Origin: a virus
Virus record (IMG/VR): IMGVR_UViG_3300033148_001599
Coordinates: 1 to 42,829 of that record
Length of the DNA: 42,829 bases
Reading direction: 5' to 3' (one strand)
The position numbers and the translations under genes were made by a program. Positions within the stretch are counted from its first letter, which is position 1; each line of letters starts with the position of its first letter. The notes under the pieces are model-generated. The model ran no database searches, was not told the origin of the DNA, and saw only the letters and a program-made list of their open reading frames with translations. Of this stretch, positions 1 to 31,248 are shown piece after piece.

Positions 1-734
1 TCTCTGCTCCACCGCCGTCCATTATACAGCACACTGGTATCGTGTTCTGTTAGTTGCGTAGTAGGCGTTGGGTATTCCTGTGGCACATCCTCATCAGCAG
101 GGTCAACAGCCCACCAAGTACCATCCATTGTCATCTGTACCCACCTGTCCCACTCTTCAGCGGGGAGAGGAGAGAGGCTACACCAGTTGATAGGCCATCC
201 CATGAGCCAGCAGACCCATGAGGGGTTGAGTTGACCTTTGCTGCCGTCCGTGACAGCGGTGGCATCCTTGAGTTTAATGCCGAACCTGACTCCCTTCTTG
301 TTTTCTCTACTCCACGACCCTTCCTTGTACTGGGCATTGTTGACGACCCCGCCTTCGGTTTCGCATGAGCGAGGCGTAGGCCACAACTGCCTAAACTTCT
401 CCGGCACATCATCAAGGCTATCGCACTCCTTCGGCATGATGCCCGATGCTCTTTCGGCTGTCTGCTCAAGCCCCAACGAGGTCTTGTACTTACGACCAGG
501 GCATTGACCCTTCAGCATCTTCTCACCTGTACGATTGATCGTGTTGGGTGTCGGCCATATCTTCTTTTGCATTGCCTCTTGAGGGTTGTTCTCTGCCCTT
601 GCTTCATCGTATGCCCTTGGCATTTCCGGATCAATTCTTTCCCGTAGATTTCCGGGATGTCTTCGGTTTTTTCTTCCTCCGTTTGTCGCCTGTCTTTTCA
701 TCGCCTCGAAACTTCGGGAGGGCAGACTGTCCAT
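1..734 (-). CDS. C-terminal part of a DNA cytosine-5 methyltransferase (partial, runs off left edge)
   Basis: An open frame of 244 codons begins with ATG at 734 and reaches the window edge without a stop. The N-terminal segment carries LPSRSFEAMKRQ and HPGNLRE. Two WPTP motifs follow (residues about 60-63 and 118-121), then GQLNPSWVCWLMGWP at about 167-181. In phage Dcm-like enzymes such a segment sits in the C-terminal region and corresponds to the motif IX area after the target-recognition domain. Motifs I-VIII are missing here; they are encoded upstream at 1339-1926, beyond an HNH gene. The ATG has no clear ribosome binding site. The segment could be a separate beta subunit, as in naturally split enzymes such as M.AquI, or the remains of a broken gene. 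Motif X would lie outside the window. Confidence 0.75.
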   Translation of the reverse strand, partial: MDSLPSRSFEAMKRQATNGGRKNRRHPGNLRERIDPEMPRAYDEARAENNPQEAMQKKIWPTPNTINRTGEKMLKGQCPGRKYKTSLGLEQTAERASGIMPKECDSLDDVPEKFRQLWPTPRSCETEGGVVNNAQYKEGSWSRENKKGVRFGIKLKDATAVTDGSKGQLNPSWVCWLMGWPINWCSLSPLPAEEWDRWVQMTMDGTWWAVDPADEDVPQEYPTPTTQLTEHDTSVLYNGRRWSR

Positions 735-795
735 TGTGTTTGGAGTGGGCAACAACCCACAACCTATCTCGCTTATGCGGCGCTCCGCACTCGGA
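631..795 (-). pseudogene. Displaced middle fragment of the cytosine-5 methyltransferase (motif VIII copy 2)
   Basis: One base after the HNH stop codon, an open stretch of 54 codons begins SECGAPHKRDRLWV and continues VAHSKHNGQ, ending at TGA 633-631. It has the same 14 residues that close the N-terminal methyltransferase half at 1425-1384. It lacks a good start codon and is in a different frame from the C-terminal part starting at 734, which it overlaps. I read it as the original continuation of the methyltransferase, cut off by the HNH insertion and probably not translated on its own. A plus-one shift would be needed to join it to the C-terminal frame. Ancestrally the two frames may also have overlapped as separate genes. 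Confidence 0.6.
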
Positions 796-796
796 C

Positions 797-1366
797 TTAA
801 GTAGCAACTTGCGGACACTCGTACCTCAATTCCTCGTTGTTCCATGTAATCAATCCATTCTTGTACATCTCCGCAACGAGCAACTGCATCTGGTAATGTA
901 CTTGGCTGTGATGAGGCTTTGACATCACCGCAAGATTCTCCGGTGCGGGGTTTCCCTTGTCCATATCCAGATGATGCACAACTTCCCCTTTCCGAAGAGA
1001 CCTGCCCAGCGTTTTCTCGGCATTTATCACATGAACACCCCTGCCTCCCGTCTTCGGATACTTCTCGGCCACCCTTCTTTTTCGTGTCCGAATGGGTACA
1101 TTGGCTTTCTTTAGAAGGCGCTGAACCCTCTTCCAGTTCACATGAAACGATGTGGCTATCTCCTGCATTGTCATGTTTTGGGTCGTGTACATATCCACTA
1201 CTGTCGGCTTCGTCATTCCCTTGGGACGAAAACTCATCTTCCAGCACTCCCTTCTGCAATACCTCACCCTTCTCTGCTTCTCTGCTTCTCGGCGCGGCTG
1301 AAACATCTCCCCGCATTCCTCGCACGGTCTTGCTTCCGCTAATCTTCTTTGTCTTGGTGTTCCCAT
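797..1366 (-). CDS. HNH homing endonuclease (free-standing) inside the methyltransferase locus
   Basis: Predicted DNA endonuclease of about 189 residues with three parts. An N-terminal zinc-finger-like segment has CEEC and a later CRREC. A helix-turn-helix-like middle segment contains MTMQEIATSFHVNWKRVQRLL. The C-terminal HNH module reads LGRSLRKGEVVHHLDMDKGNPAPENL and ends in HHSQVHY. I chose ATG 1366 because GGAGG lies five bases upstream; an ATG at 1378 is also possible. Its first codons overlap the end of the N-terminal methyltransferase half (stop at 1339) in another frame. One base after its stop the methyltransferase motif VIII appears again, so the gene sits exactly inside a conserved coding motif, as expected for homing endonucleases. 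Confidence 0.88.
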   Translation of the reverse strand: MGTPRQRRLAEARPCEECGEMFQPRREAEKQRRVRYCRRECWKMSFRPKGMTKPTVVDMYTTQNMTMQEIATSFHVNWKRVQRLLKKANVPIRTRKRRVAEKYPKTGGRGVHVINAEKTLGRSLRKGEVVHHLDMDKGNPAPENLAVMSKPHHSQVHYQMQLLVAEMYKNGLITWNNEELRYECPQVAT

Positions 1367-1926
1367 TCGTGCCTCCATGCTCTAACCCACAATCGGTCTC
1401 TTTTGTGTGGTGCGCCACACTCGCTGGCTGACAAGATCCTCCAAGAAGCATCGTACCCGCTTTCCGCCAGGTCTCGCAGTACGGTGCCAAAGTAGTAGTG
1501 AAGAGATCCTTCTGCCTTGTCACCCACTGTCGCTGACAGGAGTCCGGGGACGTTTTCGAGGAGGCAATAGGCGGGTCTAACTTCGCGAATAATACGGGCA
1601 GTGTCTGGCCACATGTTTCGCTCGTCCCCTTCCCCTGCTCTTTTGCCTGCGACTGAAAACGGTTGGCAAGGAAAACCACTCGTGATGAGATCCACTTTTC
1701 CACGCCACGGTTTACCGTCGAAGGATCGCACGTCGTCCCAGATGGGGAATGCTTCGAGGATTTCTTCTTCCTGTCTCCGAAGCAAGACTTCTCTCGGGTA
1801 CGGTTCCCACTCAACAGCGCACACGATTCTGTGTCCAAGCAGCTTGCTTCCGAGGATTCCCCCTCCGGCTCCGGCAAAGAGGGACATTTCCCTAATTCTT
1901 CGATCATCTTTAGGCTCAAGTGCCAT
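1339..1926 (-). CDS. N-terminal part of a DNA cytosine-5 methyltransferase (motifs I-VIII)
   Basis: This 195-residue protein has the catalytic half of a Dcm-type enzyme, which transfers a methyl group from S-adenosylmethionine to cytosine C5. Motif I FAGAGGG is at residues 17-23, PCQPFS with the catalytic cysteine at 86-91, ENV at 124-126, and the motif VIII region ECGAPHKRDRLWV at 169-181. It then ends with an unrelated acidic tail (RHEWEHQDKED) overlapping the HNH gene. The target-recognition domain and motifs IX-X are absent and lie in the frame at 1-734. Family members are usually 300 residues or more. The ATG at 1926 follows GGAAAGGGG, and the preceding gene stops five bases upstream. 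Activity would require the second half in trans. Confidence 0.88.
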   Translation of the reverse strand: MALEPKDDRRIREMSLFAGAGGGILGSKLLGHRIVCAVEWEPYPREVLLRRQEEEILEAFPIWDDVRSFDGKPWRGKVDLITSGFPCQPFSVAGKRAGEGDERNMWPDTARIIREVRPAYCLLENVPGLLSATVGDKAEGSLHYYFGTVLRDLAESGYDASWRILSASECGAPHKRDRLWVRAWRHEWEHQDKED

Positions 1927-1930
1927 GACA

Positions 1931-2113
1931 TTATTTCCCCTTTCCGTTCCGTGTCTGTACAAATTCTTCCAGCTGCGTCTCGGTCACGCGTACGGTCCCG
2001 CTGAACTTCACCGATCCGAGTTTCCCTTCGCGTATCCAGCGGTAGACTTGCGCCTTGCAGACCTTCAGCTGGTCAGCGACTTCTTCTGCTGTGAATAGAT
2101 CATCCATGCTCAT
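1931..2113 (-). CDS. Small helix-turn-helix DNA-binding protein (excisionase/MerR-like)
   Basis: About 60 residues: FTAEEVADQLKVCKAQVYRWIREGKLGSVKF followed by TVRVTETQLEEFV. This is the layout of the small winged-helix family of excisionases and MerR-like regulators: an 'EVA..L.V....VYRWI..G.L...K' helix pair, a short wing, then a closing helix. Such proteins bind DNA as regulators or as recombination directionality factors. ATG 2113 overlaps the upstream stop as ATGA. A second in-frame ATG at 2107 has better spacing from GGAAAGGA. No recombinase is in the window, so a regulatory role for the methyltransferase operon is my inference. Confidence 0.8.
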   Translation of the reverse strand: MSMDDLFTAEEVADQLKVCKAQVYRWIREGKLGSVKFSGTVRVTETQLEEFVQTRNGKGK

Positions 2114-10635: not shown

Positions 10636-10998
10636 CTATTGTGTCGCCGCTGTCTTGCGGAACACACAAACAAAATGATCGGCCACACCCTGAAACTGGT
10701 CCTGCGGGTCTATGGATAACAACTTGCAATTCGTGAACGTCACGCTATCAATCACCAGGCTACCGAGTCCGGTACCGAAACTCCTTGCCAGGCCCTCGAA
10801 GTATTGCGCCAACTCTATCGTGGTTGATTTGACTACCCACGCCTTCACGGTGAGGATCTGCATGCCCCCGCCCATGTCGCGCTGACGTACTCCCTGCGCT
10901 CTTGGTATATGTACTGTGGTATCTGGCATTTGCGTGGACGGTATCAGCCACGCATAATCGCCCACGGCCACGCCGTTATAGAAACAATTTTCAGACAT
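10636..10998 (-). CDS. Small tail protein after the tape measure (distal-tail/hub-adaptor position)
   Basis: 120 residues starting MSENCFYNGVAVGDYAWLI, with GGGMQILTVKAWVVKS and IDSVTFTNCKLLSI, a beta-rich pattern. I do not recognise the family. Its place directly downstream of the tape measure (apart from the HNH gene) and before fibre genes is that of a distal tail or adaptor protein. ATG 10998 overlaps the HNH stop as TAATG and uses GGAGGG inside the HNH gene end. An earlier ATG at 11031 is less likely. Confidence 0.6.
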   Translation of the reverse strand: MSENCFYNGVAVGDYAWLIPSTQMPDTTVHIPRAQGVRQRDMGGGMQILTVKAWVVKSTTIELAQYFEGLARSFGTGLGSLVIDSVTFTNCKLLSIDPQDQFQGVADHFVCVFRKTAATQ

Positions 10999-11888
10999 TA
11001 CTTTAATCCCTCCATGAAAAAAGCCGTCCACCTATTCCTATCGAAGAGTGTTCTCACATGGCACGGCTTGCAAAGAGCAACGAGATTTTCTATGACGTTG
11101 TTGTGTTTGTCATAATCAATGTGGTGGACATCAAGCTTCTGCCCGTTATCTACTTCGAATTTCCCACATACATCACACATGTGATTATCTCTGGACCGCA
11201 CAGCCTCTTTTAATGCCTCCGTGAACCCTGGACCATATTCCTTGTGTTCGTAAGGCACTCCAGTTCCACCGTGAGATAAACTCATCTTGCGCCGAGCATC
11301 GTCGGTATACACGCCAGTCTTGCCGGCATTCCAAGACGGCACACCTTTGCGGTTTTCGCTCATCTTCCGTTTTGATTCTTCGGTATGGTGCGTACCGAAA
11401 CGCGGGTGATTCTCCTTTATCCTGAAACGATTTTTCGATGAAATGCTCATTCGTCTCCGTGTTTCGTCGGTATACTGTCCGGTTGTTCCTTTGTTCCACG
11501 GCTTGATTTCCCCTGAAGCATATTTCGCTTTCAGTACCGCAGACTGGTGATTCTTTGCCTCCTGTGACATGATGCGCCCTTCGGACGGAGAACCGTTCTC
11601 TTTCAGGTACTTCTTCATGAACTTGCTATGTGCTTTCGCCCGTTTCTTTCCTGCGTCAGTCTGGAAAAATGCACGAGTCCTGTCGGCCGTCCCCTTGCGA
11701 TCAGCCCTCCCGTTGTGTCCCTGTTTGAATTTAGGGATACCGAGTCTGTGATGCGCTCGGGTAACGGGTACCGGGTCCCCACATCCGCACCCACATGGAT
11801 GCACGCCAGTGTTCTCCTCTACCCATGCCGTGATGGTCGTGTTCTCTTGGAACGATCCGAGTTTGCCACGGATTTTCGTCTTGACCAT
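10998..11888 (-). CDS. HNH homing endonuclease with NUMOD3-like repeats
   Basis: 296 residues. An N-terminal cysteine-rich segment (HPCGCGCGDPV) is followed by a basic linker. Then come three NUMOD3-like repeats, TDETRRRMS, TEESKRKMS and TDDARRKMS, a modular DNA-binding motif of phage homing endonucleases. A C-terminal HNH domain has MCDVCG, LDVHHIDYDKHNN and LVALCKPCH. It fits exactly between the tape measure and the next tail gene, sharing TAATG with both. This suggests a neat insertion that kept translational coupling. Confidence 0.92.
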   Translation of the reverse strand: MVKTKIRGKLGSFQENTTITAWVEENTGVHPCGCGCGDPVPVTRAHHRLGIPKFKQGHNGRADRKGTADRTRAFFQTDAGKKRAKAHSKFMKKYLKENGSPSEGRIMSQEAKNHQSAVLKAKYASGEIKPWNKGTTGQYTDETRRRMSISSKNRFRIKENHPRFGTHHTEESKRKMSENRKGVPSWNAGKTGVYTDDARRKMSLSHGGTGVPYEHKEYGPGFTEALKEAVRSRDNHMCDVCGKFEVDNGQKLDVHHIDYDKHNNVIENLVALCKPCHVRTLFDRNRWTAFFMEGLK

Positions 11889-15634: not shown

Positions 15635-16645
15635 CTATACAAAGTCAATATCCAAGTCATCGCCGACGATAACGTCCTCCATTATCTTGTTGTACCTGCG
15701 CCAACGGCAATCCCATGCGGAGCAAGTAGTTGCTGTCAAGCTGGACACGATATCCTTGTGTCTATTTTTTCCCCAAAAATCTGCGAAATTTCTGTCAAAT
15801 ACATTGCCTATGATGTACTCGGGTGTCCGGAGGAAGCAACAGACGAAACAGTTGCCCTGCGGATCTATGACGGTATGCGTCGGAGACAGGAAGCATTTCA
15901 CGTTCTCCGTGCGTGGTAGCACAGAGCCGAAGACATCGACATCGTGCATCATCATGTCGCGCTCATATACAATCTGCTCCTCACACATCTGCACCTGTTT
16001 CTTGTCCATGGTGTTCGGGCCATTGTGCTCGGCCTTGAACTGTACGTAGCCCACTCCGAGGTCAGCCCCCAGTTCCAGCATGTCCCCTGTATCTTGATGG
16101 TTCAGGTTGTTCAGCAGAAACTTCACGCCTATGCGCGGGCGCGTGAAGCCGTTCTTCGTCTTAACGAACCGACGGATGTTATCGCATACGGTCTCGAAGG
16201 CGTTCTTGGCGCGAGGGCGCTTGATGTCTTCGTACGTCTGGTAGTCCGCAGCGTCCAGCCCGATCCGTACATACCGGAAGTCTTTCAGGATATCCATGTC
16301 AAGGTTCGTGCCGTTCGTGAACAGCCCCAACTTCAGACCGCAGTCAATGGCGTGTTCCGCTATCTTCTCAAAGTCCGGATGCAGTGTCGGTTCTCCTCCG
16401 CCAGAAAACTCCAGCGACTTCACACCAGCCCGGGAGATGTCGTCTATCATCCGCAGTGTTGATGCCGTGTCAGCAACGTGATGGTCTTCCCGGTTCTCAT
16501 GCTTGTACAGACAGAACGAACAGTTGTAATTGCAGATGGTCGTGGGCCAGAAGCTGACCATCCTCGGCGGTGGAATGTGGCCGGACAGTATCTGTTTCGC
16601 CTCGTGATAGAACGACAGTATCTTGTGCGATCCCAGTGGATTCAT
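15635..16645 (-). CDS. Radical SAM enzyme with SPASM-like C-terminus
   Basis: 336 residues. The CxxxCxxC cluster motif is CNYNCSFC near residue 38-45. SGGGEPTLHPDF is the usual GGEP motif for S-adenosylmethionine binding. The C-terminal part has CFLSPTHTVIDPQGNCFVCC and later CSAWDCRW, cysteine clusters like the SPASM domain that binds extra iron-sulfur clusters. Substrate unknown. Its start overlaps the stop of the HAD-like gene (ATGA). It is the last gene of the island before the tail tube, separated from it by about 75 bases. Confidence 0.85.
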   Translation of the reverse strand: MNPLGSHKILSFYHEAKQILSGHIPPPRMVSFWPTTICNYNCSFCLYKHENREDHHVADTASTLRMIDDISRAGVKSLEFSGGGEPTLHPDFEKIAEHAIDCGLKLGLFTNGTNLDMDILKDFRYVRIGLDAADYQTYEDIKRPRAKNAFETVCDNIRRFVKTKNGFTRPRIGVKFLLNNLNHQDTGDMLELGADLGVGYVQFKAEHNGPNTMDKKQVQMCEEQIVYERDMMMHDVDVFGSVLPRTENVKCFLSPTHTVIDPQGNCFVCCFLRTPEYIIGNVFDRNFADFWGKNRHKDIVSSLTATTCSAWDCRWRRYNKIMEDVIVGDDLDIDFV

Positions 16646-16947
16646 ACCAGTCCCCCCATTTCATCCCAGTTCGTAAACTTCTCCGCTTCATCCCCGATGT
16701 ACAGGTCAAAGTGTGGCTTGTCCATTATCAGGTGGTGGTACGGCACCGCCCATTTCTCCAGCCATGCCAGCGTATCGGTTTGATGTTCTTCGCTCGACCG
16801 GTGCGTGAACAGGACTACCAGGTGGCCAGCCTCGCACCACTTCCCCAGTTGCTCGATGGCCCCGGGAAGCGGTTTGCAGTTCATGATGCCGAATGACTTG
16901 TACCTGTCGGTGCAGAAGGTGTTGTCGAGATCAATCCCTATCTTCAA
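16642..16947 (-). CDS. Small HAD-family phosphatase (possible GmhB role)
   Basis: 101 residues. MKIGIDLDNTF gives the HAD motif I DxDxT-like site. LVVLFTHRSS is motif II. MDKPHFDLYIGDEA gives the lysine of motif III and the acidic motif IV. Small HAD proteins of this kind often sit with sugar nucleotidyltransferases. It is shorter than the usual GmhB (about 190 residues) and lacks its zinc-binding loop. So the role as heptose bisphosphate phosphatase is inferred from the neighbours (isomerase, kinase, nucleotidyltransferase). Coupled by ATGA on both sides. Confidence 0.7.
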   Translation of the reverse strand: MKIGIDLDNTFCTDRYKSFGIMNCKPLPGAIEQLGKWCEAGHLVVLFTHRSSEEHQTDTLAWLEKWAVPYHHLIMDKPHFDLYIGDEAEKFTNWDEMGGLV

Positions 16948-18500
16948 TGTGAGAACCCCTCGTCTTCCGTGAAGTCACCGACGATGTCCACGTTGATCTG
17001 TGGCATTTCTTCGATTGTATCAAACACGACCATAGCATCGTAGTTATCAAACCGTCCGTTCGGAACACGAACATCAAACTTGTGCGACAATACCAGTTCC
17101 AAGCAGTCCAGCATGATGTGCGCTGCGTAGTTCTTCTCCTTGTGTTTCACGCCGTCCTTGTCGTTCCGCAGTTTCTTGTACCGTGGATAGATGCGCTCGT
17201 ACTCGTCGAATATTTCGCGGGGTACAGGGAGCGTCGGCAACCACGCAAAGCCCTTCGTGATAGTCTTGCCCGTTCCGTCGATTGCAACTTCCCGCGTACT
17301 CTCCGGGACCCTGGCCTCGTGCAACGGCGTGCCCGGTAGCGGAATCAGATACGGTTCAAGCGATAGACCTGCTCCCATTTCTGACATCTTCCGATAGTCT
17401 ATTATCTGCGTGACAAGGTCATCCAGCGTACAGTATGGCGTGAACAGCAACAGCGTGTAATACGGTTTGATGCCGGCATCGAGTATCAGTTGTGTGTTCT
17501 CCCATATCTGCTCGACGGTCTGTTTCTTGTTCAGGCTGTCCAGCACATCCTGGCTCGTGGACTCCACGCCTATGCTCAAGATGCGGAATCCAGCTGCGGC
17601 CATGAGTTTGACTCGGTATTCTGTAATCCGATTTATATTTGTCAGGCAGATGAAGCGCAACCTTTCCGGTATAGTTTCATTTTTCTTCGCTTCGACAATC
17701 GCCTCGAGCATCGGTTCCGTCCTGGAGTTCAGCAGGAAGAAGTCGTCGTCCACAAAGAATATCTGGCGTACATCCGGATATGCGTCCACCACGTCCATGA
17801 TCTGCGACACGACTTCATCCGGAGACAGGCTCACGACCGGCGCATTGCATCCACTCGCATACTTCCGCCACAGCGTCAGCGTACAGAACTTGCACCCCAT
17901 CGGGCAGTAGTTCGATGTGAACAGCCTGAAGGTATTGATTTCGTTATAGTCCGGTTCATCGTACAGCGTGGCCGTCTTCTTCCAGTACCGCTCGGCTCCC
18001 ATAGCCTCGTAGTCCAGACACTGACTAATCTCCCAGTAGTCCTCGGATGTCAGCACCTTGGCGTACGTCCGGGATATGATGCCGTCGATGGATCCGATGC
18101 CGTTACCCTTCGCCAGTTCCAGCATAGGATACTCGCCCTCGGCTGTGACGATAACATCCACCGGAGCGTTATCCAGAACCCGCTGATACTCCAGCGCCGC
18201 ACCGCTTCCGCCGGCCACTATCATGGCATCCGGCTGTAGCTTCTTCGCCTTGTGGATTGCCGCAAGATCGTATTCCAGTGTCGCTGTCAGGACAGAGAAC
18301 GCGATGATGTCGTACTTCACCTGCTCCAGCACTATCTCGAATGATACGGAATCGGGGTCATTACAATCGTAGACATCGCACTCGATATCATGGTACCGCA
18401 GATATGACGCTATCCGCCAGACACCGAGCGGAGGCGTGACAAATCGTTGGTTGAATAAGTCGCCCTTCGTAAACGGTGCCGCGATCAGTACCCGCTTCAT
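16944..18500 (-). CDS. B12-binding-type radical SAM enzyme (518 residues)
   Basis: The N-terminal half has the cobalamin-binding-like fold pattern (PPLGVWRIASYLR, then DIIAFSVLTATLEYDLA and AGGSGAALEYQ). The second half has the radical SAM cysteine motif CPMGCKFC. The canonical DxHxxG cobalamin signature is not obvious, so B12 binding is uncertain. Family members include methylases and ring-forming enzymes. The substrate cannot be read from sequence, but its place between a nucleotidyltransferase and a HAD phosphatase suggests a sugar or sugar-linked substrate. ATG 18500 overlaps the upstream stop as ATGA. Confidence 0.82.
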   Translation of the reverse strand: MKRVLIAAPFTKGDLFNQRFVTPPLGVWRIASYLRYHDIECDVYDCNDPDSVSFEIVLEQVKYDIIAFSVLTATLEYDLAAIHKAKKLQPDAMIVAGGSGAALEYQRVLDNAPVDVIVTAEGEYPMLELAKGNGIGSIDGIISRTYAKVLTSEDYWEISQCLDYEAMGAERYWKKTATLYDEPDYNEINTFRLFTSNYCPMGCKFCTLTLWRKYASGCNAPVVSLSPDEVVSQIMDVVDAYPDVRQIFFVDDDFFLLNSRTEPMLEAIVEAKKNETIPERLRFICLTNINRITEYRVKLMAAAGFRILSIGVESTSQDVLDSLNKKQTVEQIWENTQLILDAGIKPYYTLLLFTPYCTLDDLVTQIIDYRKMSEMGAGLSLEPYLIPLPGTPLHEARVPESTREVAIDGTGKTITKGFAWLPTLPVPREIFDEYERIYPRYKKLRNDKDGVKHKEKNYAAHIMLDCLELVLSHKFDVRVPNGRFDNYDAMVVFDTIEEMPQINVDIVGDFTEDEGFSH

Positions 18501-19156
18501 CCTGTCTCCTCCAGCAGTTGTTCGTATTGCTCCGGCGTGCCAATATCCCGGACCCCCGATTCTATCACGTACACGTTCGCCATGTGCGCCAGATGTGGCA
18601 ACCAATCCCGGCCGATATCAAACATCCGTGGCGACAGCGTGTTCAGCGCCTCGCCCTCACCGGTTATCAATCCAGAGAATGAGTGGGTGCCCTTCGGTAT
18701 CTCCGGCTTCTCCGCGAAGCCCACCATAACACCGTTCGCTATCTGCGCAATCCCGCACCCCGTCAGATCCTCACGTTCGTCCACGGCCACGGTCATCTTG
18801 TACACGTCTCGGTATTCGATGAACTCCACCAGGTCGATATCCGTCCAGACATCCCCGTATATCACGATGAACCGTTCCTTGCCTATCCACTCCCGTGACG
18901 CATACAACGTGCCGGCGCTTCCGAGTAGTTCCTTCTCGCCCATCAACTCCACACCTGACCCGTACAGTTCCTCGAACATCATCCCGGGCTGGTAATGGAC
19001 GTTGACTATGATGTCCATGGTATCGTCCACCTCCCACAGCCGGTCTATCCAGTGCCTGACAATCGGCTTCCCGGCAACGGGCAGCAGGCACTTCGGCATG
19101 TCCGTATACCCCTGCATCCGGGTGGACATCCCCGCGCACAGTATGATGGCTTTCAC
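18497..19156 (-). CDS. Sugar-phosphate nucleotidyltransferase, HddC-like
   Basis: 219 residues starting MKAIILCAGMSTRMQGYTDM (GTG start). It carries the modified signature of NTP transferases, followed by PKCLLPVAGKPIVRHW and VIYGDVWTD, with the metal-binding aspartate in GDxxTD. The C-terminal end is RDIGTPEQYEQLL, typical of this family. HddC makes GDP-D-glycero-alpha-D-manno-heptose from the 1-phosphate. I prefer that role because an isomerase and a HddA-like kinase are in the same island. Family members using other sugars are hard to exclude. The GTG start overlaps the previous stop (GTGA). Confidence 0.75.
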   Translation of the reverse strand: MKAIILCAGMSTRMQGYTDMPKCLLPVAGKPIVRHWIDRLWEVDDTMDIIVNVHYQPGMMFEELYGSGVELMGEKELLGSAGTLYASREWIGKERFIVIYGDVWTDIDLVEFIEYRDVYKMTVAVDEREDLTGCGIAQIANGVMVGFAEKPEIPKGTHSFSGLITGEGEALNTLSPRMFDIGRDWLPHLAHMANVYVIESGVRDIGTPEQYEQLLEETG

Positions 19157-20103
19157 AGTTCCAGCGCCTCCAAGAATCTGGCCTTTGTATTTTCTTCCGA
19201 GTAGTACGATACCTCCTCGGCAGCGTGGTCGCAAACATCTTCGTAGAATGACTGGTCGGTATACAGCGCCATCGTCAACTCAATCATCCGCTTGCTGTCA
19301 TAGATGTACGTCCCGAGATGCGGGAACAACCTGGCCTGCGTATGCGAGTGCATGTTCCCGATGACTGGCGTGCCACAGCCAGCCCCGAATATGGCGTTCC
19401 TCGATGTCCCTATCATGTCGCTCGGGTTCAACATCACCACGCTCGGCGCAACGATATGCTCCAGATAATGATCCCATGCGATCCGGGACACGGTATCGAG
19501 GTTCTCGATTCCCATTATATCCTTGAAGAACCACACCTGATTCTCTACGGGCTCGCACAACAGGCACGGCTTCTTCACCGCCTTGATGACCCCGAGGCTC
19601 GTGATAACGTTGGTCGGGTACCTCTGCTGGTCCATGCCGAGATTGCAGCACACCAGTATCCGGTCGGTCTTCGTCTGCTTCGGTGCGTTTATCACCTTGT
19701 CGGTTATGGGAACGTGCAGGAAGAACGCCGGCGTATCCCACAGCGACTCGTACCACGGAATACGGTCCTCCTCGAATGCGCCTATCAGATCCACCTCCTG
19801 TAGCAGTTCATAGAATAACCGCTGGTGGTCGAACGGCATCTTCGTGAAGTAGTTGATCGTGCCCTCCGGACAGAATATCGTCTTGCAGTCTTGGTGCTTG
19901 GCTATCTGAATCGCATCCTCAATGTACCTGTCGCAGTCCACGAACAGCACAACATCGTACTCGTCCAGCACTTCCTTGTTCTCTCGGACAGACAGAATGG
20001 AGCGGTGTTCCCCTCCGAACAGACGGGGCCAGTCGAATATGTTGTTGGAATGCGCCGTCACCTTGCCGTTGAAATCCGCTCCCGAGAGCATACAGAACTT
20101 CAT
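19153..20103 (-). CDS. Glycosyltransferase-like protein (316 residues)
   Basis: Rossmann-type alternation with DEYDVVLFVDCD and CKTIFCPEGTINYF in the N-terminal half, and DRILVCCNLGMDQQRYP and VVMLNPSDMIGTSRN later. The C-terminal GAGCGTPVIGNMHSHTQARLFP resembles the acceptor end of GT-B glycosyltransferases (G.GTP.I). No clear named family. The location among GT2 and sugar-nucleotide genes supports glycan transfer. ATGA-coupled upstream and GTGA-coupled to the nucleotidyltransferase. Confidence 0.55.
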   Translation of the reverse strand: MKFCMLSGADFNGKVTAHSNNIFDWPRLFGGEHRSILSVRENKEVLDEYDVVLFVDCDRYIEDAIQIAKHQDCKTIFCPEGTINYFTKMPFDHQRLFYELLQEVDLIGAFEEDRIPWYESLWDTPAFFLHVPITDKVINAPKQTKTDRILVCCNLGMDQQRYPTNVITSLGVIKAVKKPCLLCEPVENQVWFFKDIMGIENLDTVSRIAWDHYLEHIVAPSVVMLNPSDMIGTSRNAIFGAGCGTPVIGNMHSHTQARLFPHLGTYIYDSKRMIELTMALYTDQSFYEDVCDHAAEEVSYYSEENTKARFLEALEL

Positions 20104-21432: not shown

Positions 21433-21935
21433 TTCTGGACCACGGCATAGATTGCGGACGGAACATCACCGTATCTGTATATGACATCCAGGTTGCATGA
21501 CTTCCAATCACTGAACAGTCTCTCCGCTCCTTGCGGCGTGAATCGGCACAGGTCAAGGTCTTGCCACAGAGGGTAGCCGATCGACAGCATCCCGAACAGC
21601 GCACGTCCCCCTTTCAGCAACATGTCGTGTATCGCATCCGCCATCACAAACGGGTTGTGGCACTGTTCCATCACTCCGTGGCATACGACTATCTCTGGAA
21701 GGCGATGGGATTTATCGAAAAACTCATATTCCTCTATGTCTGCAACGATGTCCGGCTTCAGTTCTTTGCTCCGGTCAACGGTCTTGTAGTCAGCCCCGGC
21801 ATCCGTCCACAGCTTCCGATATCCCCACCCCTCGTCCGGGTGGCCTACGTCCAGAACCACCGACCCCGGCTTTGCATGGTCTTCTACGAACGCCGGCAAT
21901 ACGGCTTCATTGAAGTATCTGCGTTCCGGTGTCAT
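21429..21935 (-). CDS. Methyltransferase-like protein (168 residues)
   Basis: SVVLDVGHPDEGWGYRKLW replaces a normal glycine-rich motif I (VLDVG). An acidic residue at YKTVDRSKELKPDIVADIE follows, and then LPEIVVCHGVMEQCHNPF is in the motif IV position. Class I methyltransferase fold is likely; substrate unknown. Coupled on both sides by ATGA (21935 and 21432). Confidence 0.7.
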   Translation of the reverse strand: MTPERRYFNEAVLPAFVEDHAKPGSVVLDVGHPDEGWGYRKLWTDAGADYKTVDRSKELKPDIVADIEEYEFFDKSHRLPEIVVCHGVMEQCHNPFVMADAIHDMLLKGGRALFGMLSIGYPLWQDLDLCRFTPQGAERLFSDWKSCNLDVIYRYGDVPSAIYAVVQK

Positions 21936-22762
21936 CCTCCGAACTCCTTTTTGTAGTATTCATCATAGACCGGCTCCACCAGCAGTTCCCTGCCGAGGCA
22001 TCCACAGAACGGCTTGTCACACGGACGCGGTTCCGGATACAGTTCAAACCCCGTGAACAGATTGCCGAGAACAGTACGGTCGTGGTCACACGGCGACATA
22101 TCGAAGTTCTCCCACAGACTCACGCCACCGCAGCCAGCCGAGCATGTCTTGCCTTGCACGAATAGTGCATCGCCCGGCTGTCCACCCCCCTCGTCTCCAC
22201 AGTACCGCTTCCGCATCGGCACGATGCCCCTGTCATACAACCATTCCGCCCACTTCATGAACTCGTCCGCTGGTATGCGTGGATCGTCTATCATCCAAGT
22301 CGTTGTCTTGAAGCCCTTCTCCTGCGCATGTAGGAAGTTCTCGACGTAATCGTCCAGAGCCTTATCCCCACCCCACAACAGGCGTGCTTGCGGGTGAAAC
22401 GATGTCTCGATGATCTCAACGTACTCCGGGCTGGCTTGGTCCGCAAAGTCCGGGAACTGCAGGGACATGTTCGTCTGCAACTCCACCTTCCCGCCTATCT
22501 CCCCGACCTTCTGGCATACCTCGATGATCCAAGGCTTCAGCATCGGTTCCCCGCCCGTCAACGTAATCCGGAACGGCTGTGGTACGGTTTTCAATTTCTC
22601 AATGAACTCGTCTACATTGAACTCGTCCGCCACCTCGTGCGTCCCGTAGCAGTATGCGCATTGGAAGTTGCACTCGCGGTTGACCATCCATATCATCGTG
22701 AAGCGGTCTCGGTAACTCCGGTGCTTTCGCTCGGTATAGAACGGGCTATCAGGTAGTATCAT
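21932..22762 (-). CDS. Radical SAM enzyme (276 residues)
   Basis: CNFQCAYC (near residue 34) is the iron-sulfur CxxxCxxC motif, and LTGGEPMLKPW is the SAM-binding GGEP. The C-terminal third has many cysteines (CSAGCGG, CDHDR, CDKPFCGC), resembling a SPASM/twitch end for extra clusters. Substrate not known. Its start overlaps the last 14 bases of the deacetylase-like gene. Together with the genes at 15635, 16944 and 28666 the island encodes four radical SAM proteins. Confidence 0.85.
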   Translation of the reverse strand: MILPDSPFYTERKHRSYRDRFTMIWMVNRECNFQCAYCYGTHEVADEFNVDEFIEKLKTVPQPFRITLTGGEPMLKPWIIEVCQKVGEIGGKVELQTNMSLQFPDFADQASPEYVEIIETSFHPQARLLWGGDKALDDYVENFLHAQEKGFKTTTWMIDDPRIPADEFMKWAEWLYDRGIVPMRKRYCGDEGGGQPGDALFVQGKTCSAGCGGVSLWENFDMSPCDHDRTVLGNLFTGFELYPEPRPCDKPFCGCLGRELLVEPVYDEYYKKEFGG

Positions 22763-23288
22763 TTTTCAGCCTTTCTTCGAGCGCCTCCAGGTTGCGGCCC
22801 CCGATAAACTCCCACCAGTGAAAATTGAAGACCTCCTTCTCGTCTACTGAATCGTTGACCATCAGCCCCAACGTTTCGCACGCCCTGAACAGATCCGGGC
22901 AGACCTTGTTCCACGGCGGATAGAATGTGTCTATCGGGATGTCCACGCCCATCCGTGAGTTGTGTTTCTTCCAGTCATCGAGGCAGATGCCGAGGTCTGT
23001 CAGTATCGACTCGTAATCAAGCCCAGAGTAGTCCCAGTGACAGGATCCGTGCAACGCTATGTCCAGATTCGGCGTAGTCGTCAGCCACTCCCATACCCCA
23101 CGGCTTGACCACAGTTCATCCGTCAGTATCGTGACCGTGTGTATCTTGTCGTGCTCCAGGAACAGTTCGTGGATGTTCATGATCGTGGTCAGGTCGGTGT
23201 ACTTTCCGATATCATCGTCCCTGTATATGATTGCTACACCCCTTTCTGTGTTCGTCTTTGTGACACGGTTTGCATAATGTAATGCCAT
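22749..23288 (-). CDS. Polysaccharide-deacetylase-like protein, 5' end altered by HNH insertion
   Basis: The conserved part begins VAIIYRDDDIGKYTDL, with an acidic triad (DDD). Later come IALHGSCHWDYSGL, the H-G-x-x-H metal-binding motif of NodB-like deacetylases, and TFYPPWNKV. It would remove acetyl groups from a glycan. The available start at 23288 adds 17 residues (MALHYANRVTKTNTERG) encoded inside the HNH gene; no ATG, GTG or TTG lies nearer to the conserved region. The HNH gene overlaps it by 77 bases, so the original start was probably lost on insertion. Ends 14 bases into the radical SAM gene. Confidence 0.65.
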   Translation of the reverse strand: MALHYANRVTKTNTERGVAIIYRDDDIGKYTDLTTIMNIHELFLEHDKIHTVTILTDELWSSRGVWEWLTTTPNLDIALHGSCHWDYSGLDYESILTDLGICLDDWKKHNSRMGVDIPIDTFYPPWNKVCPDLFRACETLGLMVNDSVDEKEVFNFHWWEFIGGRNLEALEERLKNDTT

Positions 23289-23697
23289 TGTTTATGTCAA
23301 GACGTAAAGCCGGGTATTCGGTGAACGGTTTGATGTGGTGTGCGTTGAATTTGCCTTTTGTATCGCCGCATTCCTGACATTCATACCCATCTCTTTCAAA
23401 TACGGACGTTCTCCACGCAAAATATTCTTTCGTAGTTCTTTGGCGAAGATTTTCGGGGCATATTCCGCCCCTCCAGTTAGGGTTGCGACTTCCGGTGAGT
23501 CGCGTAAGGTGTTGACCAACCACCCGACCATTGCACTGCTTATCTTTATAGTATTGCTTGTAAAAATCAGAGTTGCTTCCGAATCGTTTTTTTACCCATC
23601 GCTTATGGTATTCTTTCAATTTGATTTTGCGGGCTTCGGCCGCTTCTTCTTTTGTCTTGTATTTCCGGCCACGATATGAACTGTCAGTCATAATCAT
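23212..23697 (-). CDS. HNH homing endonuclease (free-standing)
   Basis: 161 residues. The N-terminus is basic (MTDSSYRGRKYKTKEEAAEARK, possibly DNA-binding). NPNWRGG is followed by the HNH domain: CQECGDTKGKFNAHHIKPFTEY, then LDINNGITLCKPCHKDEH. The ATG at 23697 overlaps the methyltransferase stop (ATGA) with GGGGGGTGA upstream. The end lies inside the deacetylase-like gene in another frame. It is the third HNH gene in the window, each at a gene boundary. Confidence 0.9.
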   Translation of the reverse strand: MIMTDSSYRGRKYKTKEEAAEARKIKLKEYHKRWVKKRFGSNSDFYKQYYKDKQCNGRVVGQHLTRLTGSRNPNWRGGICPENLRQRTTKEYFAWRTSVFERDGYECQECGDTKGKFNAHHIKPFTEYPALRLDINNGITLCKPCHKDEHRKGCSNHIQGR

Positions 23698-24449
23698 TTC
23701 GTCACCCCCCATATCACACGCTCCAGTTCCATTTCGTGTATCGTATACTCGGTACAGTTCTCTGACAGGTACCGCTCGAGCATCTCCTGTGATATCTGCT
23801 GCATGTGCTCGCCACCCTCGTCCTCCTTCGGCTTCGCTACCACCCCGCATATCTCTCGGCCTACACGGAACTGCTCCGCAAACGCTTGGTCGAGATCGTG
23901 GACGTGTTCTACGGAATGGCTCGTGAATACCATGTCGAAGGTCTTGTCAGGAAACGCCAGGTCTTCCGCCAGCATCTGTTTGTATTCAGGCATCGTACAT
24001 TCCGGGCGCTTGAATTTCAGACACGGCAGGATAGCATACGCAAACCCGACGTTGACCATCGCCACGTCCACCCCCGTGTACTTGACCCCTGCGGTTGAAC
24101 ACCATATCCCGAACTCGCCCTGACCGCACCCGATATCCAGCAGCGTGCCGATAGACTTCATCTTGTCCTTCAGGATATTGTCATACAGATATTCAATACC
24201 CCCGGCCCTGCTGTTCGTAGCGTTCATCTTGTCAGCAAACGTGAATGTCCTGCCCTGATCGTAACTGTATGTCCTGACGTACGTCTCCACACCGCCCTGC
24301 TTGATAACATTCAGGAGATACCATACGGGTGTCATCAACGCGTTCCCCTCGTGCCAGCCGTTGATGTCGATACCATAGTCCTGTATCGTCGTGGGCATGC
24401 GCACAACGTTCGGGGCGAATACTCCGGGGATGATTTCGGGTTGTTTCAT
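23694..24449 (-). CDS. SAM-dependent methyltransferase (251 residues)
   Basis: GTLLDIGCGQGEFGIWC is motif I, VKYTGVDVAM the acidic post-I strand, and DLAFPDKTFDMVFTSHSVEHV motif IV, all typical class I methyltransferase. The first 100 residues (PNVVRMPTTIQDYG, GWHEGNALMTPVWYLLNV) are unlike a plain methyltransferase and could form an accessory domain. The end (EYTIHEMELERVIWGVTK) closes the fold. Start overlaps the previous small gene as ATGA. Confidence 0.82.
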   Translation of the reverse strand: MKQPEIIPGVFAPNVVRMPTTIQDYGIDINGWHEGNALMTPVWYLLNVIKQGGVETYVRTYSYDQGRTFTFADKMNATNSRAGGIEYLYDNILKDKMKSIGTLLDIGCGQGEFGIWCSTAGVKYTGVDVAMVNVGFAYAILPCLKFKRPECTMPEYKQMLAEDLAFPDKTFDMVFTSHSVEHVHDLDQAFAEQFRVGREICGVVAKPKEDEGGEHMQQISQEMLERYLSENCTEYTIHEMELERVIWGVTK

Positions 24450-26260: not shown

Positions 26261-26934
26261 ACCGCATCTCCATATCTGCCACAGTATTCACACTTGTCTG
26301 CAGCCTCGGGTTTCTCGCCGGCCAGACACGCAACCGCATCGCGTACCGTCTGACGTGCGCTTTCAGGATCCACAGACAACTCTACAGGCTCAACAGTGAA
26401 CTGGATGGCACCATTATCGAAACTCGTCAGCGGGTAGTAGTAGATCAGGTATGCGGACTCCGCCATCTTGAGCCCCCCGCCTATCCCCATAAGCGTGTAG
26501 CAGTCCATCTGATTCTGGTAGTACGTGCCGAGAATGTCCGCTTCCTTCAGCGGTCCGCCCTTGGTCTTGTAATCGGCAATGATATGCGTATCGCCATCAA
26601 TCAGCATCTCGTCTATCGCACCCCGCAGGAACGCCCCTGTATCCGGACACGTGTACGTCATATCAGTGCCCCGCCAGTTGCGCCGCTTCTTCATCAGGAC
26701 AGGATCCGGGAACAGCATGCCTGGCAAGCGCCCCTCTATCTCCGGTGGCATCGTGCCGGCCGCACGGTGGTTGTCGTAGTACGTCTTCAGTATCCCGTCT
26801 ATACCGCTCGGCAACGATGGGAATATCCCCCTGACTCTCGGCTTCTTCTCGTTCTTGTCAGCCCAAAAACAACGCGGGCACGCAAGGAATACGTTCAACG
26901 ACGACGGTGACAGCGCCAGTACTTTCTCGCTCAT
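26257..26934 (-). CDS. PD-(D/E)XK nuclease, Cas4/RecB-like
   Basis: 225 residues. LSPSSLNVFLACPRCFW is the N-terminal motif of the RecB/Cas4 family, with a cysteine pair where Cas4 has its first cluster cysteine. GAIDEMLIDGDTHIIADYKTK has the D..DYK catalytic triad pattern. The C-terminal end has CEYCGRYG, two further cysteines, consistent with an iron-sulfur cluster. Such exonucleases usually work in DNA repair or recombination, so its position between a GT2 and a phosphoheptose isomerase gene, with ATGA coupling on both sides, is unexpected. Function is uncertain; the fold call is firm. Confidence 0.82.
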   Translation of the reverse strand: MSEKVLALSPSSLNVFLACPRCFWADKNEKKPRVRGIFPSLPSGIDGILKTYYDNHRAAGTMPPEIEGRLPGMLFPDPVLMKKRRNWRGTDMTYTCPDTGAFLRGAIDEMLIDGDTHIIADYKTKGGPLKEADILGTYYQNQMDCYTLMGIGGGLKMAESAYLIYYYPLTSFDNGAIQFTVEPVELSVDPESARQTVRDAVACLAGEKPEAADKCEYCGRYGDAV

Positions 26935-27461
26935 AATAGCTCCTTTGCAGCTATAGCCATGATATGCAACATTCCCTGATGCACGGTTTCAACTATCCCG
27001 TAATCAGCTTCGTGGACACAAATGTAATCATTCGCCAACTCCCTCGCATGCGCATTGTCCGGTGTCGGCCTTCCCATCAACAACAGGCTCTCGTTCCCCC
27101 GCCCTTCTGCTGCCTCGATCGCACGCATGATATTCGGTGAACATCCCGACACACTGATAGCCAGGAGCGTATCGCCCGGCCTCGATAGCGTATTGAACTG
27201 TGCCACGAACGATTCAGCGTAACTCGTATCATTCGCATATGCTGTCAGGGGTGCCACAGATGTCAGTGCCATACAGCGCACACCAGCGACCTTCAGGAAG
27301 TCATTGACCGCATGCTCGGCATTCGATGCGCTTCCGCCGTTGCCGATGACGTAGACGGTTCCGTTCGTATCAGCTATCGCCCTGGCGAACCGGAGAACAC
27401 CATGGCCGTCGATGTCCTTGACTGCCCAGTTCAGACTATCGATATGTTCTTGCACGTCCAT
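26931..27461 (-). CDS. gmhA: Phosphoheptose isomerase, GmhA-like (SIS domain)
   Basis: 176 residues, the length of GmhA (about 190). VYVIGNGGSASNAEHAVNDF is the conserved substrate-binding loop, LAISVSGCSPNIMRAI the second SIS loop, and ADYGIVETVHQGMLHIM includes the catalytic histidine region. It converts sedoheptulose 7-phosphate to D-glycero-D-manno-heptose 7-phosphate. The next step gene (kinase) is directly upstream and overlaps it by 26 bases, which strengthens the heptose assignment over other SIS functions. Confidence 0.85.
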   Translation of the reverse strand: MDVQEHIDSLNWAVKDIDGHGVLRFARAIADTNGTVYVIGNGGSASNAEHAVNDFLKVAGVRCMALTSVAPLTAYANDTSYAESFVAQFNTLSRPGDTLLAISVSGCSPNIMRAIEAAEGRGNESLLLMGRPTPDNAHARELANDYICVHEADYGIVETVHQGMLHIMAIAAKELL

Positions 27462-28437
27462 CGTATATCACCTTGCTCCCCTCGTGGTCGAACCGGAACG
27501 GCATCTCCATCAGCGGATCCATAGCATGTCGCACTTCTCCCTTCTCATCATCGGCAACAATCAACAGCATGAATCCGCCACCCCCTGCTCCCACAACCTT
27601 ACCGCCGAGCGCCCCTGCTTCAAGCGCACACAGATATGTCTCCGCGATATCCGGGTTCGCAATCCCGTCCGCTATCTCGCGCTTGATACCCCATGACTCA
27701 TGAACGATGTCCCCGACAGTCTCGAACGACGCATCGTTTCCAATCCACTGCATCATCTTGTCCACCGACCGACTCAATGCGTGGTATAGATCCAGCTTCG
27801 AGGGCATGCACTCGCCCTGCTGTTTCAGTATATCGTTCCCGTTGCGCCCAGCGTCCAGATGGAACAGCAACGTATGGTCCTCAAGCCAGTCGATTTTCTT
27901 GTTGCGCTTGATGTCCTGGTCCATCCTGTTCACCGACGCATACGCCTTCTCGGAAAATGTCAGGTGATTGAACCCCCCACATGCCGAGGCGTACTGATCC
28001 TGCCGACCTATCGGGGCACCTACCTTATCGATTTCGATGTTGCAGGCAAGGAAGGCCAGTCGTTCCTTGCACATCGGGGCGTTCGTGTACACACTCAAGG
28101 CATGGAGCAACGCCACGGTCAACGCAGAAGACGACCCGAGCCCTGTCCCGTTCATAGGCACGTCTGATATCGTCACGATCTCTATCCCGTTCTCAACACC
28201 GAACAGCGACAGGCACTCCCGGACGATATCGTGCTTCAAATCACGGGTGTGCGCCACGTCCTCCGTCTCTGAATACCGCAGGCTCACACGCCCGTCGAAC
28301 TTCTCCGTCAGCGTCACATAGACGTACTTGTCAATACTGGTGCTAACGACCTGGCCGCCGTACACGTCAGCATACGACGGCAGATCGGTTCCACCTCCCA
28401 CGTACGATATCCGTAGTGGTGCCCGGACTATAATCAT
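27436..28437 (-). CDS. hddA: GHMP kinase, HddA-like heptose 7-phosphate kinase
   Basis: 333 residues. RAPLRISYVGGGTDLPSY is typical of the HddA/D-glycero-alpha-D-manno-heptose 7-phosphate kinase branch. The ATP-binding loop is GTGLGSSSALTVALL, and the C-terminal motif is GGKVVGAGGGGFMLLIV. The enzyme makes the 1,7-bisphosphate in the GDP-heptose route. The gene pair with gmhA is the same in characterised bacterial GDP-heptose clusters. ATGA-coupled to the zinc-ribbon gene upstream. Confidence 0.88.
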   Translation of the reverse strand: MIIVRAPLRISYVGGGTDLPSYADVYGGQVVSTSIDKYVYVTLTEKFDGRVSLRYSETEDVAHTRDLKHDIVRECLSLFGVENGIEIVTISDVPMNGTGLGSSSALTVALLHALSVYTNAPMCKERLAFLACNIEIDKVGAPIGRQDQYASACGGFNHLTFSEKAYASVNRMDQDIKRNKKIDWLEDHTLLFHLDAGRNGNDILKQQGECMPSKLDLYHALSRSVDKMMQWIGNDASFETVGDIVHESWGIKREIADGIANPDIAETYLCALEAGALGGKVVGAGGGGFMLLIVADDEKGEVRHAMDPLMEMPFRFDHEGSKVIYDGRARTYR

Positions 28438-28682
28438 TTGTTCCGCGTCTCCGGAATCGACACTATCTCCAACTCCACTTTGGGCGGTACGAATACCGTC
28501 CCTTCATGGACACACTTACGCTGACGGCATATCAGGTTGCTCGTATGGTCCGTTGTCTCGTCCATAACGTACCGACATGCGGGACACCCGATTTCGCTAC
28601 GGATTTCCGCCAGCACTTTATCCCCAACCTTTGCCGGGACTTCTTCCGCCTTCTCCTCTACGCCTTCATTTTCCTCTGACAT
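28434..28682 (-). CDS. Small zinc-ribbon protein with acidic N-terminus (82 residues)
   Basis: MSEENEGVEEKAEEVPAKVGDKV is very acidic, then GCPACRYVMDE and LICRQRKCVHEG give a zinc-ribbon pair. The end (VPPKVELEIVSIPETRNK) is beta-like. GGAGG precedes ATG 28682, which lies 17 bases inside the preceding radical SAM gene. Function unknown; another of the five small CxxC proteins. Confidence 0.65.
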   Translation of the reverse strand: MSEENEGVEEKAEEVPAKVGDKVLAEIRSEIGCPACRYVMDETTDHTSNLICRQRKCVHEGTVFVPPKVELEIVSIPETRNK

Positions 28683-30003
28683 TGTACAGCCTCCTTGCAT
28701 AGCACCTACGCCTCCACCATGTACTGACACGCGCCAGCACCCTCGTCCTCGGTAGTTTTATCAACAGCTTGATGAACGGCCTCAACAGGCGCGGGAACTC
28801 GACCACGAGCCCGAACCACTTCTGCAGGTTGTTGAACTCTTTCGTTGTATCCCGTTTGATTGTGCTGGCATCGAAGAAACTCTGACCGATGCTATCAACA
28901 TCGCCGTCCCATATCAACAGCTTCTCGCACAAGTCTCCGAGCGGTGTCTTCGGGTACGGCTGAAACAGCGAACAGAACGCCACCGCCGGCTTGCACTCGA
29001 TGTTCAGATCCAGTGTCTCCAGCGCCTCGTCTATCGTCTCGCCTGGCAACCCCACCATGTTCTCGATGCGGTACTGCAACCCCCCTTCTTGCAGTATCCT
29101 CGCAGCGTTGCGGATATCGTCCTTTGACATCTGGCGCTTCAGCATCTCTGTACGAATCAGGTCGTTCCCGGCCTCCGCTGCGAACGTCACACTGACGCAT
29201 CCCGCATTGACCAGCATCTCCACCTTCGCAGGCGTAACCAACTCCGCCCGCAACTGGCAGTGAAACGGAAGCCCGACAGCATCCGGATACTTCTTCGTGA
29301 ACTCCTTCAGCCGACCCTTGTGACATATGAACTCATCGTCTTGGAAAAAGATGAACTTGGTCTCCGGGTAGTCCCGTTTCAGTGCTATACATTCGTCGAG
29401 TACATTGTCCACAGACCGGTACCGAAGCGTCTTCTGACCCTTGAACATCTTCTTGTATGTCCCGTTGTAGCAGTACGTGCATGCGTACGGGCACCCCCTG
29501 GAAAGCATCACATTCTTGATAGGATTGTTGCGGTTCTCTGGATACGAATACATCAGGTCGCGGTCCGGGAACTCTATCGAATCGAGGTCTTGATTGATGG
29601 TGGTGGCTCGGAACAGAATGCCGTCCTTTATTGGCAACCCCATGCGGATACGCTTCAACGCTTCCGGGAGCAACGTCTCGGCTTCGCCCTGTATCAATAG
29701 ATCCACACCATCCTCGTCCACCATATCTTGAAAGAACGTCGCGTGCGGTCCGCCGAAGACACTTACCATGTCCGGGAATCTCTCTTTCAGTTCACGGTTC
29801 AGTTCAAGGTAATACTGGTGCCATCCAGTCGTTACGGAATAGGCCAGAACGTCAGGATGGATTTCGAGCATATCCTCATCGCTCACCCCGTCCTTCGTCT
29901 TCAGTATCGCCGTCTCGTGCCCCTGCGCCTTCAGTTCAGCAGACAGATACCCTATCCCGAGCGGATCGATTGTATAGTCGTGTATCAGGAATAGTATTTT
30001 CAT
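28666..30003 (-). CDS. B12-binding-type radical SAM enzyme (445 residues)
   Basis: N-terminal cobalamin-binding-like part: PLGIGYLSAELKAQGHE, LAYSVTTGWHQYYLELNREL, MVSVFGGPHATFF and GEAETLLPEAL are the usual B12-radical SAM landmarks. Then LSRGCPYACTYCYNG is the radical SAM C-x3-C-x2-C cluster motif. Class members include methylases and ring-forming enzymes; the actual substrate is unknown. ATG 30003 overlaps the dehydratase stop as ATGA, so it is translated with it. The C-terminal tail is basic. Confidence 0.88.
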   Translation of the reverse strand: MKILFLIHDYTIDPLGIGYLSAELKAQGHETAILKTKDGVSDEDMLEIHPDVLAYSVTTGWHQYYLELNRELKERFPDMVSVFGGPHATFFQDMVDEDGVDLLIQGEAETLLPEALKRIRMGLPIKDGILFRATTINQDLDSIEFPDRDLMYSYPENRNNPIKNVMLSRGCPYACTYCYNGTYKKMFKGQKTLRYRSVDNVLDECIALKRDYPETKFIFFQDDEFICHKGRLKEFTKKYPDAVGLPFHCQLRAELVTPAKVEMLVNAGCVSVTFAAEAGNDLIRTEMLKRQMSKDDIRNAARILQEGGLQYRIENMVGLPGETIDEALETLDLNIECKPAVAFCSLFQPYPKTPLGDLCEKLLIWDGDVDSIGQSFFDASTIKRDTTKEFNNLQKWFGLVVEFPRLLRPFIKLLIKLPRTRVLARVSTWWRRRCYARRLYNVRGK

Positions 30004-30968: not shown

Positions 30969-30975
30969 TGCGCTC

Positions 30976-31248
30976 TCAATCGTCCAGATGCGCCATGAGA
31001 TGTGACCGGGCATCGTTCACACGAGAGTCGTGATACGCTCCCGCGAATTGGATGTCATCGTTCTCGATACCTTCCAGGGCTTCCATCACCTTCCCCTGGT
31101 CAGCCGATCCGTCACGCCTGTGGTGCGGGACCTTCTTGTCCAGAGTGTCCGTCTCCTCCAGCACTGTCGTCTTCTTCTCCGCTACCGCCGGCTCCGGCTT
31201 CTGACTTGCCTTCGTCGTTTTCTGCGCCCCCAATTTTTCCTTCGACAT
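30976..31248 (-). CDS. Hypothetical protein overlapping the GT9 gene end (90 residues)
   Basis: The N-terminal half is lysine/glutamate-rich and probably disordered (MSKEKLGAQKTTKASQKPEP). The second half is more structured (GKVMEALEGIENDDIQF). ATG 31248 is preceded by GAGGAGGTGATGAAAC, one of the best ribosome binding sites in the window. It overlaps the GT9 frame by 137 bases in another reading frame. I believe this protein is the functional one in the overlap and the GT9 tail is the by-product. Function unknown. Confidence 0.6.
   Translation of the reverse strand: MSKEKLGAQKTTKASQKPEPAVAEKKTTVLEETDTLDKKVPHHRRDGSADQGKVMEALEGIENDDIQFAGAYHDSRVNDARSHLMAHLDD

Follow-up and report, generated by a model that had tools for sequence, protein, structure and literature searches.

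A nested HNH endonuclease gene and a synonymously recoded copy of motif VIII in a two-frame phage cytosine methyltransferase

We report a phage C5-cytosine methyltransferase with two overlapping reading frames, alpha and beta, into which a non-splicing mobile HNH element carrying a recoded end for alpha has, very probably, been inserted. The locus lies on the minus strand of a linear IMG/VR record of 42,829 bases, the whole of which is referred to here as the window. Out-of-frame HNH elements were previously known from a few mycobacteriophage methylases and were regarded as oddities. What is new is the two-frame C5 host with the element at the junction of alpha and beta, the presence in two unrelated elements of an amino-acid-identical but recoded copy of motif VIII, and a statistical case for constraint on the second frame of nested HNH genes; a search of the open-access literature found no paper describing this two-frame, recoded-copy HNH arrangement. 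The features of the locus are as follows.

1926..1945, minus strand: region shared by the two starts, ATG 1931 for beta and ATG 1926 for alpha, and containing the ribosome-binding stretch AAAGGGGAAA, from the sequence.
1339..1926, minus strand: alpha, C5-cytosine methyltransferase motifs I-VIII, 195 aa (PF00145, E=1e-38; TIGR00675).
3..1931, minus strand: beta, an open ORF of 643 codons in the +1 frame (phrog_1008 'DNA methyltransferase', E=1e-14; frame also open in relatives).
1384..1425, minus strand: motif VIII copy 1 (SECGAPHKRDRLWV), recoded, completing alpha and probably element-borne (comparison of the copies with relatives).
797..1378, minus strand: HNH endonuclease gene, in the third frame (Pfam HNH_3, E=4e-8; phrog_15471).
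1366, minus strand: possible second HNH start, with GGAGG at 1376-1372, five bases upstream.
1100..1204, minus strand: helix-turn-helix-like segment of the HNH protein, residues ~59-93 (weak, below-cut-off Pfam and NCBIfam HTH/sigma-70 matches).
905..1039, minus strand: HNH_3 catalytic domain (HHLDMDKGNPAPENL...H), residues 114-158 (Pfam).
754..795, minus strand: motif VIII copy 2, probably native DNA, where the beta frame reads SAERRISEIGCGL (nearest relatives match copy 2 better).
631..807, minus strand: alpha-frame remnant 3' of the HNH gene (MLLKSECGAPHKRDRLWVVAHSKHNG...), from the ORF list, with a stop at 631.
192..230, minus strand: motif IX (LNPSWVCWLMGWP), in the beta frame, from the sequence.

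The 14 residues of motif VIII are encoded twice, at 1425-1384 and at 795-754, on either side of the HNH gene. Each copy is 42 bases long, and 30 of these are shared; the 12 that differ fall in 10 of the 14 codons and are all synonymous in alpha. On each of these points, as on the presence of an HNH element within a cytosine methyltransferase, an earlier note on this DNA is confirmed, the HNH ORF 1378-797 being real (HNH_3, E=4e-8) and the N-terminal half being a C5-methylase (PF00145, TIGR00675). The similarity of the copies stops abruptly, on the left at the S of copy 2 and on the right after RLWV, and the limits of the duplicates coincide exactly with the start and the stop of the HNH gene. 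The repeat is beyond chance: the flank-versus-flank score is 89, where the best of 100 shuffles reached 37.

Alpha ends shortly past copy 1, and copy 2 resumes in the alpha frame one base past the TAA of the HNH gene. The remnant that follows contains no later motif in the alpha frame and is probably dispensable in that frame; copy 2 itself is retained because its DNA also encodes beta, which is read across it. The beta ORF spans alpha, both copies of motif VIII and the whole HNH gene, and continues through the target-recognition region and motif IX until the contig edge cuts it ahead of motif X. The insert is 630 bases long, a multiple of three, and the through (+2) frame of the HNH gene contains 0 stops (P about 1e-4, synonymous shuffle). 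The same earlier note had the C-terminal half in a separate frame starting at 734. This start has to be replaced by a single ORF of 643 codons that is open from 1931 to 3, and the separation is not a product of the insertion, the two overlapping frames being native to the family.

In the relatives of this methylase a +1 frame (beta, phrog_1008) runs alongside alpha and encodes LNPxWVxWLMGWP, which we read as motif IX. Motif X (GNGQVP) stays in alpha in most relatives; in a minority, here termed X_b, alpha ends just past motif VIII and motif X is in beta. Judged by the stop after motif VIII and by its beta sequence, the window methylase belongs to X_b, and its motif X would lie past the contig edge. 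The starts of alpha and beta overlap in many relatives too. The depletion of stops in the +1 frame supports beta as a real protein frame: across 126 thinned phage alpha genes, +1 has 141 stops against 434 expected under synonymous shuffling and is fully open in 78 of them against 7 expected; the +2 frame of the same genes has 1093 stops against 956 expected. An HNH insertion that split one gene into two frames was considered and rejected, as both frames are native in relatives. A conserved W-x-x-DPA stretch of the X_b betas was also considered as the scar of an older HNH insertion and was dropped, the other frames holding no HNH remnant. Two further methylases (L052 and L092) look as though a frameshift had exchanged the roles of the frames: the C-terminal part of alpha, motif X included, is encoded in +1, and LMGWP one frame further on.

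Alignment with uninterrupted relatives distinguishes the two copies, copy 2 resembling these relatives and copy 1 not, from which it follows that copy 1 came with the element and that copy 2 is native. The matches to copy 2 and copy 1, of 42 bases, are 36 versus 29 in L055, 35 versus 26 in L420, 34 versus 24 in L422 and 31 versus 23 in L034. In one listing of relatives all favour copy 2 except for one tie; in a second set the 15 nearest all do so, and over the whole of that set of 62 loci the margin is a modest 31 to 22 for copy 2, with 9 ties. A broad beta-profile test did not separate the copies of the window, and no close uninterrupted sister is known, the best alpha identity being 61% (L401). 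The best reading is thus that copy 1 is a recoded alpha end borne by the element, and that copy 2 is the native DNA.

The architecture recurs. Of 274 distinct alpha loci, just two carry a duplicated motif VIII, the window and L007/L096 (contig IMGVR_UViG_3300036713_000251), and 80 further alpha loci yielded no additional case. In L007 the 19 residues VLGAVDVGAPHRRERIWIV are present twice, identical at 19/19 residues and at 43/57 bases, either side of an HNH gene of the PF01844 type that is unrelated to that of the window; the copies are 456 bases apart, again a multiple of three, and beta is open throughout. Here copy 2 is favoured by 61 loci and copy 1 by 12, and, ranked among natural sequences by a beta-frame profile, copy 1 is at the 1st percentile and copy 2 at the 25th. 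Natural pairs with identical 14 or 19 residues never share fewer than 33/42 or 46/57 bases, compared with 30 and 43 here. Across the 354 loci the site and layout are common only to these two, their HNH genes are unrelated and no near-identical pair of elements was found. The resemblance of relatives to copy 2 and the recurrence in L007 together support the earlier proposal of a mobile HNH unit whose own recoded copy completes the N-terminal polypeptide, the native copy lying beyond the insertion, and a search for other phages with this insertion found the layout again around another HNH gene.

The statistical case for constraint on the second frame comes from nested HNH genes as a class. Scanning with nested HNH proteins recovered 79 HNH loci in viruses; the search alignment, A6, was built from four nested genes with the window HNH left out, the locus sets overlap (L328 is L071, L321 is L178 and L364 is L007), and the counts describe this sample and are no census. 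The +2 frame of the HNH gene is free of stops at 27 of the 29 loci that lie no more than 2.5 kb downstream of an alpha gene, compared with 6 of 50 others (Fisher P=3e-13). Over 26 non-redundant nested HNH genes, the window included, the read-through frame has 1 stop where about 180 are expected. With the window included, 15 cases have beta as their through-frame, 12 have alpha and 2 have the remaining frame; the through-frame usually leads directly into motif X. The +2 frame of free-standing relatives of the window HNH gene contains 3, 13, 15 and 12 stops. Of 27 nested HNH loci tested, 7 showed a clear flanking duplication (L325, L328, L332, L337, L343, L007/L364 and the window), so that some such elements have no visible repeat. 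To look for the same element elsewhere, the window HNH protein was used as a query and gave only distant HNH proteins; at the DNA level, the region had no match in phage records.

Several observations stand beside these counts. The six open-frame HNH genes outside methylases (L342, L347, L348, L357, L369 and L386) are out of frame with no stop in the host frame and, as read from the translations, are apparently nested in inteins of phage terminase and DNA polymerase III genes. Three HNH elements, at L071 (3052-3414), L178 (3672-4022) and L261 (2150-2323), have motif IX on one side and motif X on the other; in the first two, motif X comes with the insertion and is read in the beta frame, the old beta tail (EPLEMDK...) being displaced to the third frame past the HNH stop. 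The window itself has two further, free-standing HNH genes (10998-11888 and 23212-23850), whose +2 frames contain 12 and 13 stops.

On the mechanism that we propose, the inserted unit would consist of copy 1, the recoded alpha end, together with the third-frame HNH gene. With copy 1, alpha would finish on an intact motif VIII, and beta would be translated through the HNH gene, which is stop-free in that frame, as a single polypeptide with ~210 extra residues. The predicted HNH nuclease would act on uninterrupted alleles by nicking or cutting them close to motif VIII; repair would then copy the entire unit into the cut allele. As the upstream flank and copy 1 restore the exact protein, unrecoded codons would recreate the DNA target, and the recoding of copy 1 would render the carrier immune; such self-immunity is plausible. 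Home-and-rescue drives rest on the same principle, in that a recoded rescue copy escapes the nuclease. The engineered forms are the topic of PMC7968924. The insertion site would be a tolerant one, since fragments of M.SssI complement best if the C-terminal one starts past motif VIII but ahead of the recognition domain (PMC3404938). We suggest, tentatively and as a possibility that falls somewhat short of probable, that the locus represents a natural 'home-and-rescue' element, in which a predicted nuclease cuts a catalytic motif, a self-immune recoded copy restores the protein and a second host protein is translated through the nuclease gene, so that all three frames are under selection, and that dozens of methylase HNH elements are alike in this.

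The immunity step, as distinct from the rest of this explanation, is opposed by a reading in which the recoding is a by-product and confers no resistance: copy 1, freed of beta, drifts at synonymous sites, or the divergence persists because recombination between identical repeats would remove the HNH gene. Dual coding does restrain synonymous change in relatives, and the beta frame of copy 1 in L007 is off-profile, so this account deserves serious weight, if rather less than would make it the probable one. Drift should, however, have affected copy 2 as well, which is free of alpha duty and could have changed at beta-silent sites, most of which alter alpha, and yet 0 of 33 copy 2 residues differ over the two cases, compared with 10 of 14 codons recoded in the one and most of 19 in the other. 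An origin as a chimera of two related methylase genes, the N-terminal part from one phage and the HNH gene with the rest from another, we consider unlikely. Phage methylases often recombine (PMC9957025), and the copies in L007 are about equally far from L045 (44 and 45 of 57 bases), but a chimera leaves unexplained an HNH gene that is stop-free in the beta frame, a length that is a multiple of three, duplicates bounded exactly by the HNH start and stop and the recurrence in L007 with a different HNH gene. No motif VIII duplication lacking an HNH gene was found among the 274 loci or the 80 more.

That the HNH gene is internal to a self-splicing intron or intein is very unlikely, although the search matches do include HNH genes nested in intein-like hosts. 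An Rfam search of the locus gave no match up to E=1, the RNA fold is unremarkable (z=-0.9), a Pfam search of beta gave no domain, of an intein or otherwise, and exact excision is unneeded, beta being already open. For a gene at the edge of a metagenomic contig, one might suspect an artefact of assembly or a methylase in decay that has picked up a stray HNH gene; independent contigs with the same layout, and frames conserved against strong chance expectation, make this highly improbable. The non-splicing mobile element is the preferred explanation.

Known systems resemble the locus in part. The closest known kind is the ShiLan domain, an out-of-frame HNH element of mycobacteriophage methylases (PMC11855218, PMC9957025), of which the window element appears to be a variant: common to both are a stop-free, in-frame methylase insertion of ~200 codons, an HNH gene in an alternate frame and the absence of an intron or intein signal. 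The first 11 residues of the ShiLan domain resemble the sequence after the insertion (69.5-75.9% aa), a repeat that its authors considered as a possible intron signature and set aside (PMC11855218, PMC9957025). Recomputed for phage ShiLan, it amounts to 6/11 amino acids and 18/33 nucleotides, 606 bases apart. From its DPPYG motif we read ShiLan gp65 as an amino-methylase, not a C5-methylase, and its host gene has one frame and a repeat that is not amino-acid-identical, whereas the window host has two frames and identical residues. In phage enzymes of other kinds, mobE in Aeh1 nrdA and mobA in T4 gene 60/39 (PMC2988022) are HNH homing endonuclease genes that, like the window HNH gene, lie inside a conserved enzyme gene whose product functions in pieces; there, however, the host gene is truly split, and neither a read-through frame nor a recoded duplicate is described. 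The fungal mitochondrial mobile ORFs with C-terminal duplication, in atp6, atp9, cox2 and nad3 of Allomyces and Glomus (PMC3630166), likewise bring a replacement gene end with the endonuclease ORF, diverged largely at synonymous sites, while the native end is displaced downstream and remains closest to relatives. They differ in being mitochondrial and of the LAGLIDADG or GIY-YIG type, in place of an HNH gene in a phage, and their displaced end is dispensable, whereas that of the window should still serve the second frame.

The division of the host protein also has parallels. The small subunit of M.EcoHK31I has an overlapping-frame origin. In the two-polypeptide C5-methylases M.AquI and M.EcoHK31I, which unlike the window are without an HNH element, motif IX is on a different polypeptide from motifs I-VIII, and M.AquI is divided into motifs I-VIII and IX-X (PMC3404938). 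Alpha of the window (1926-1339), with motifs I-VIII, would correspond to the large subunit, and beta, with motif IX at 230-192, to the small one; motif X is in the beta of X_b relatives, the window contig ending earlier.

These comparisons suggest a rule that such nuclease genes leave the other frame of the host open, and that some of them supply a replacement for the piece that they displace, which would make a selfish element almost harmless to its host gene. Self-immunity by synonymous recoding becomes directly testable with short DNA, and the locus offers a route for the separation of overlapping genes. Gene finders overlook or mis-split such loci.

Elsewhere in the window, inspection of the translations by eye points to a run of sugar-nucleotide/heptose pathway-like genes (18497-19234, 26931-27461, 27436-28437, 30000-31013 and 31112-32218), unusual in a phage, with look-alikes of a nucleotidyltransferase, a SIS/GmhA-like protein, a GHMP kinase, a GDP-mannose dehydratase-like protein and a heptosyltransferase-like protein. 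Four radical-SAM-like proteins with CxxxCxxC motifs are encoded at 15635-16645, 16944-18605, 21932-22762 and 28666-30072; two of them have B12-binding-like N-termini, and their neighbours are methyltransferase and glycosyltransferase genes.
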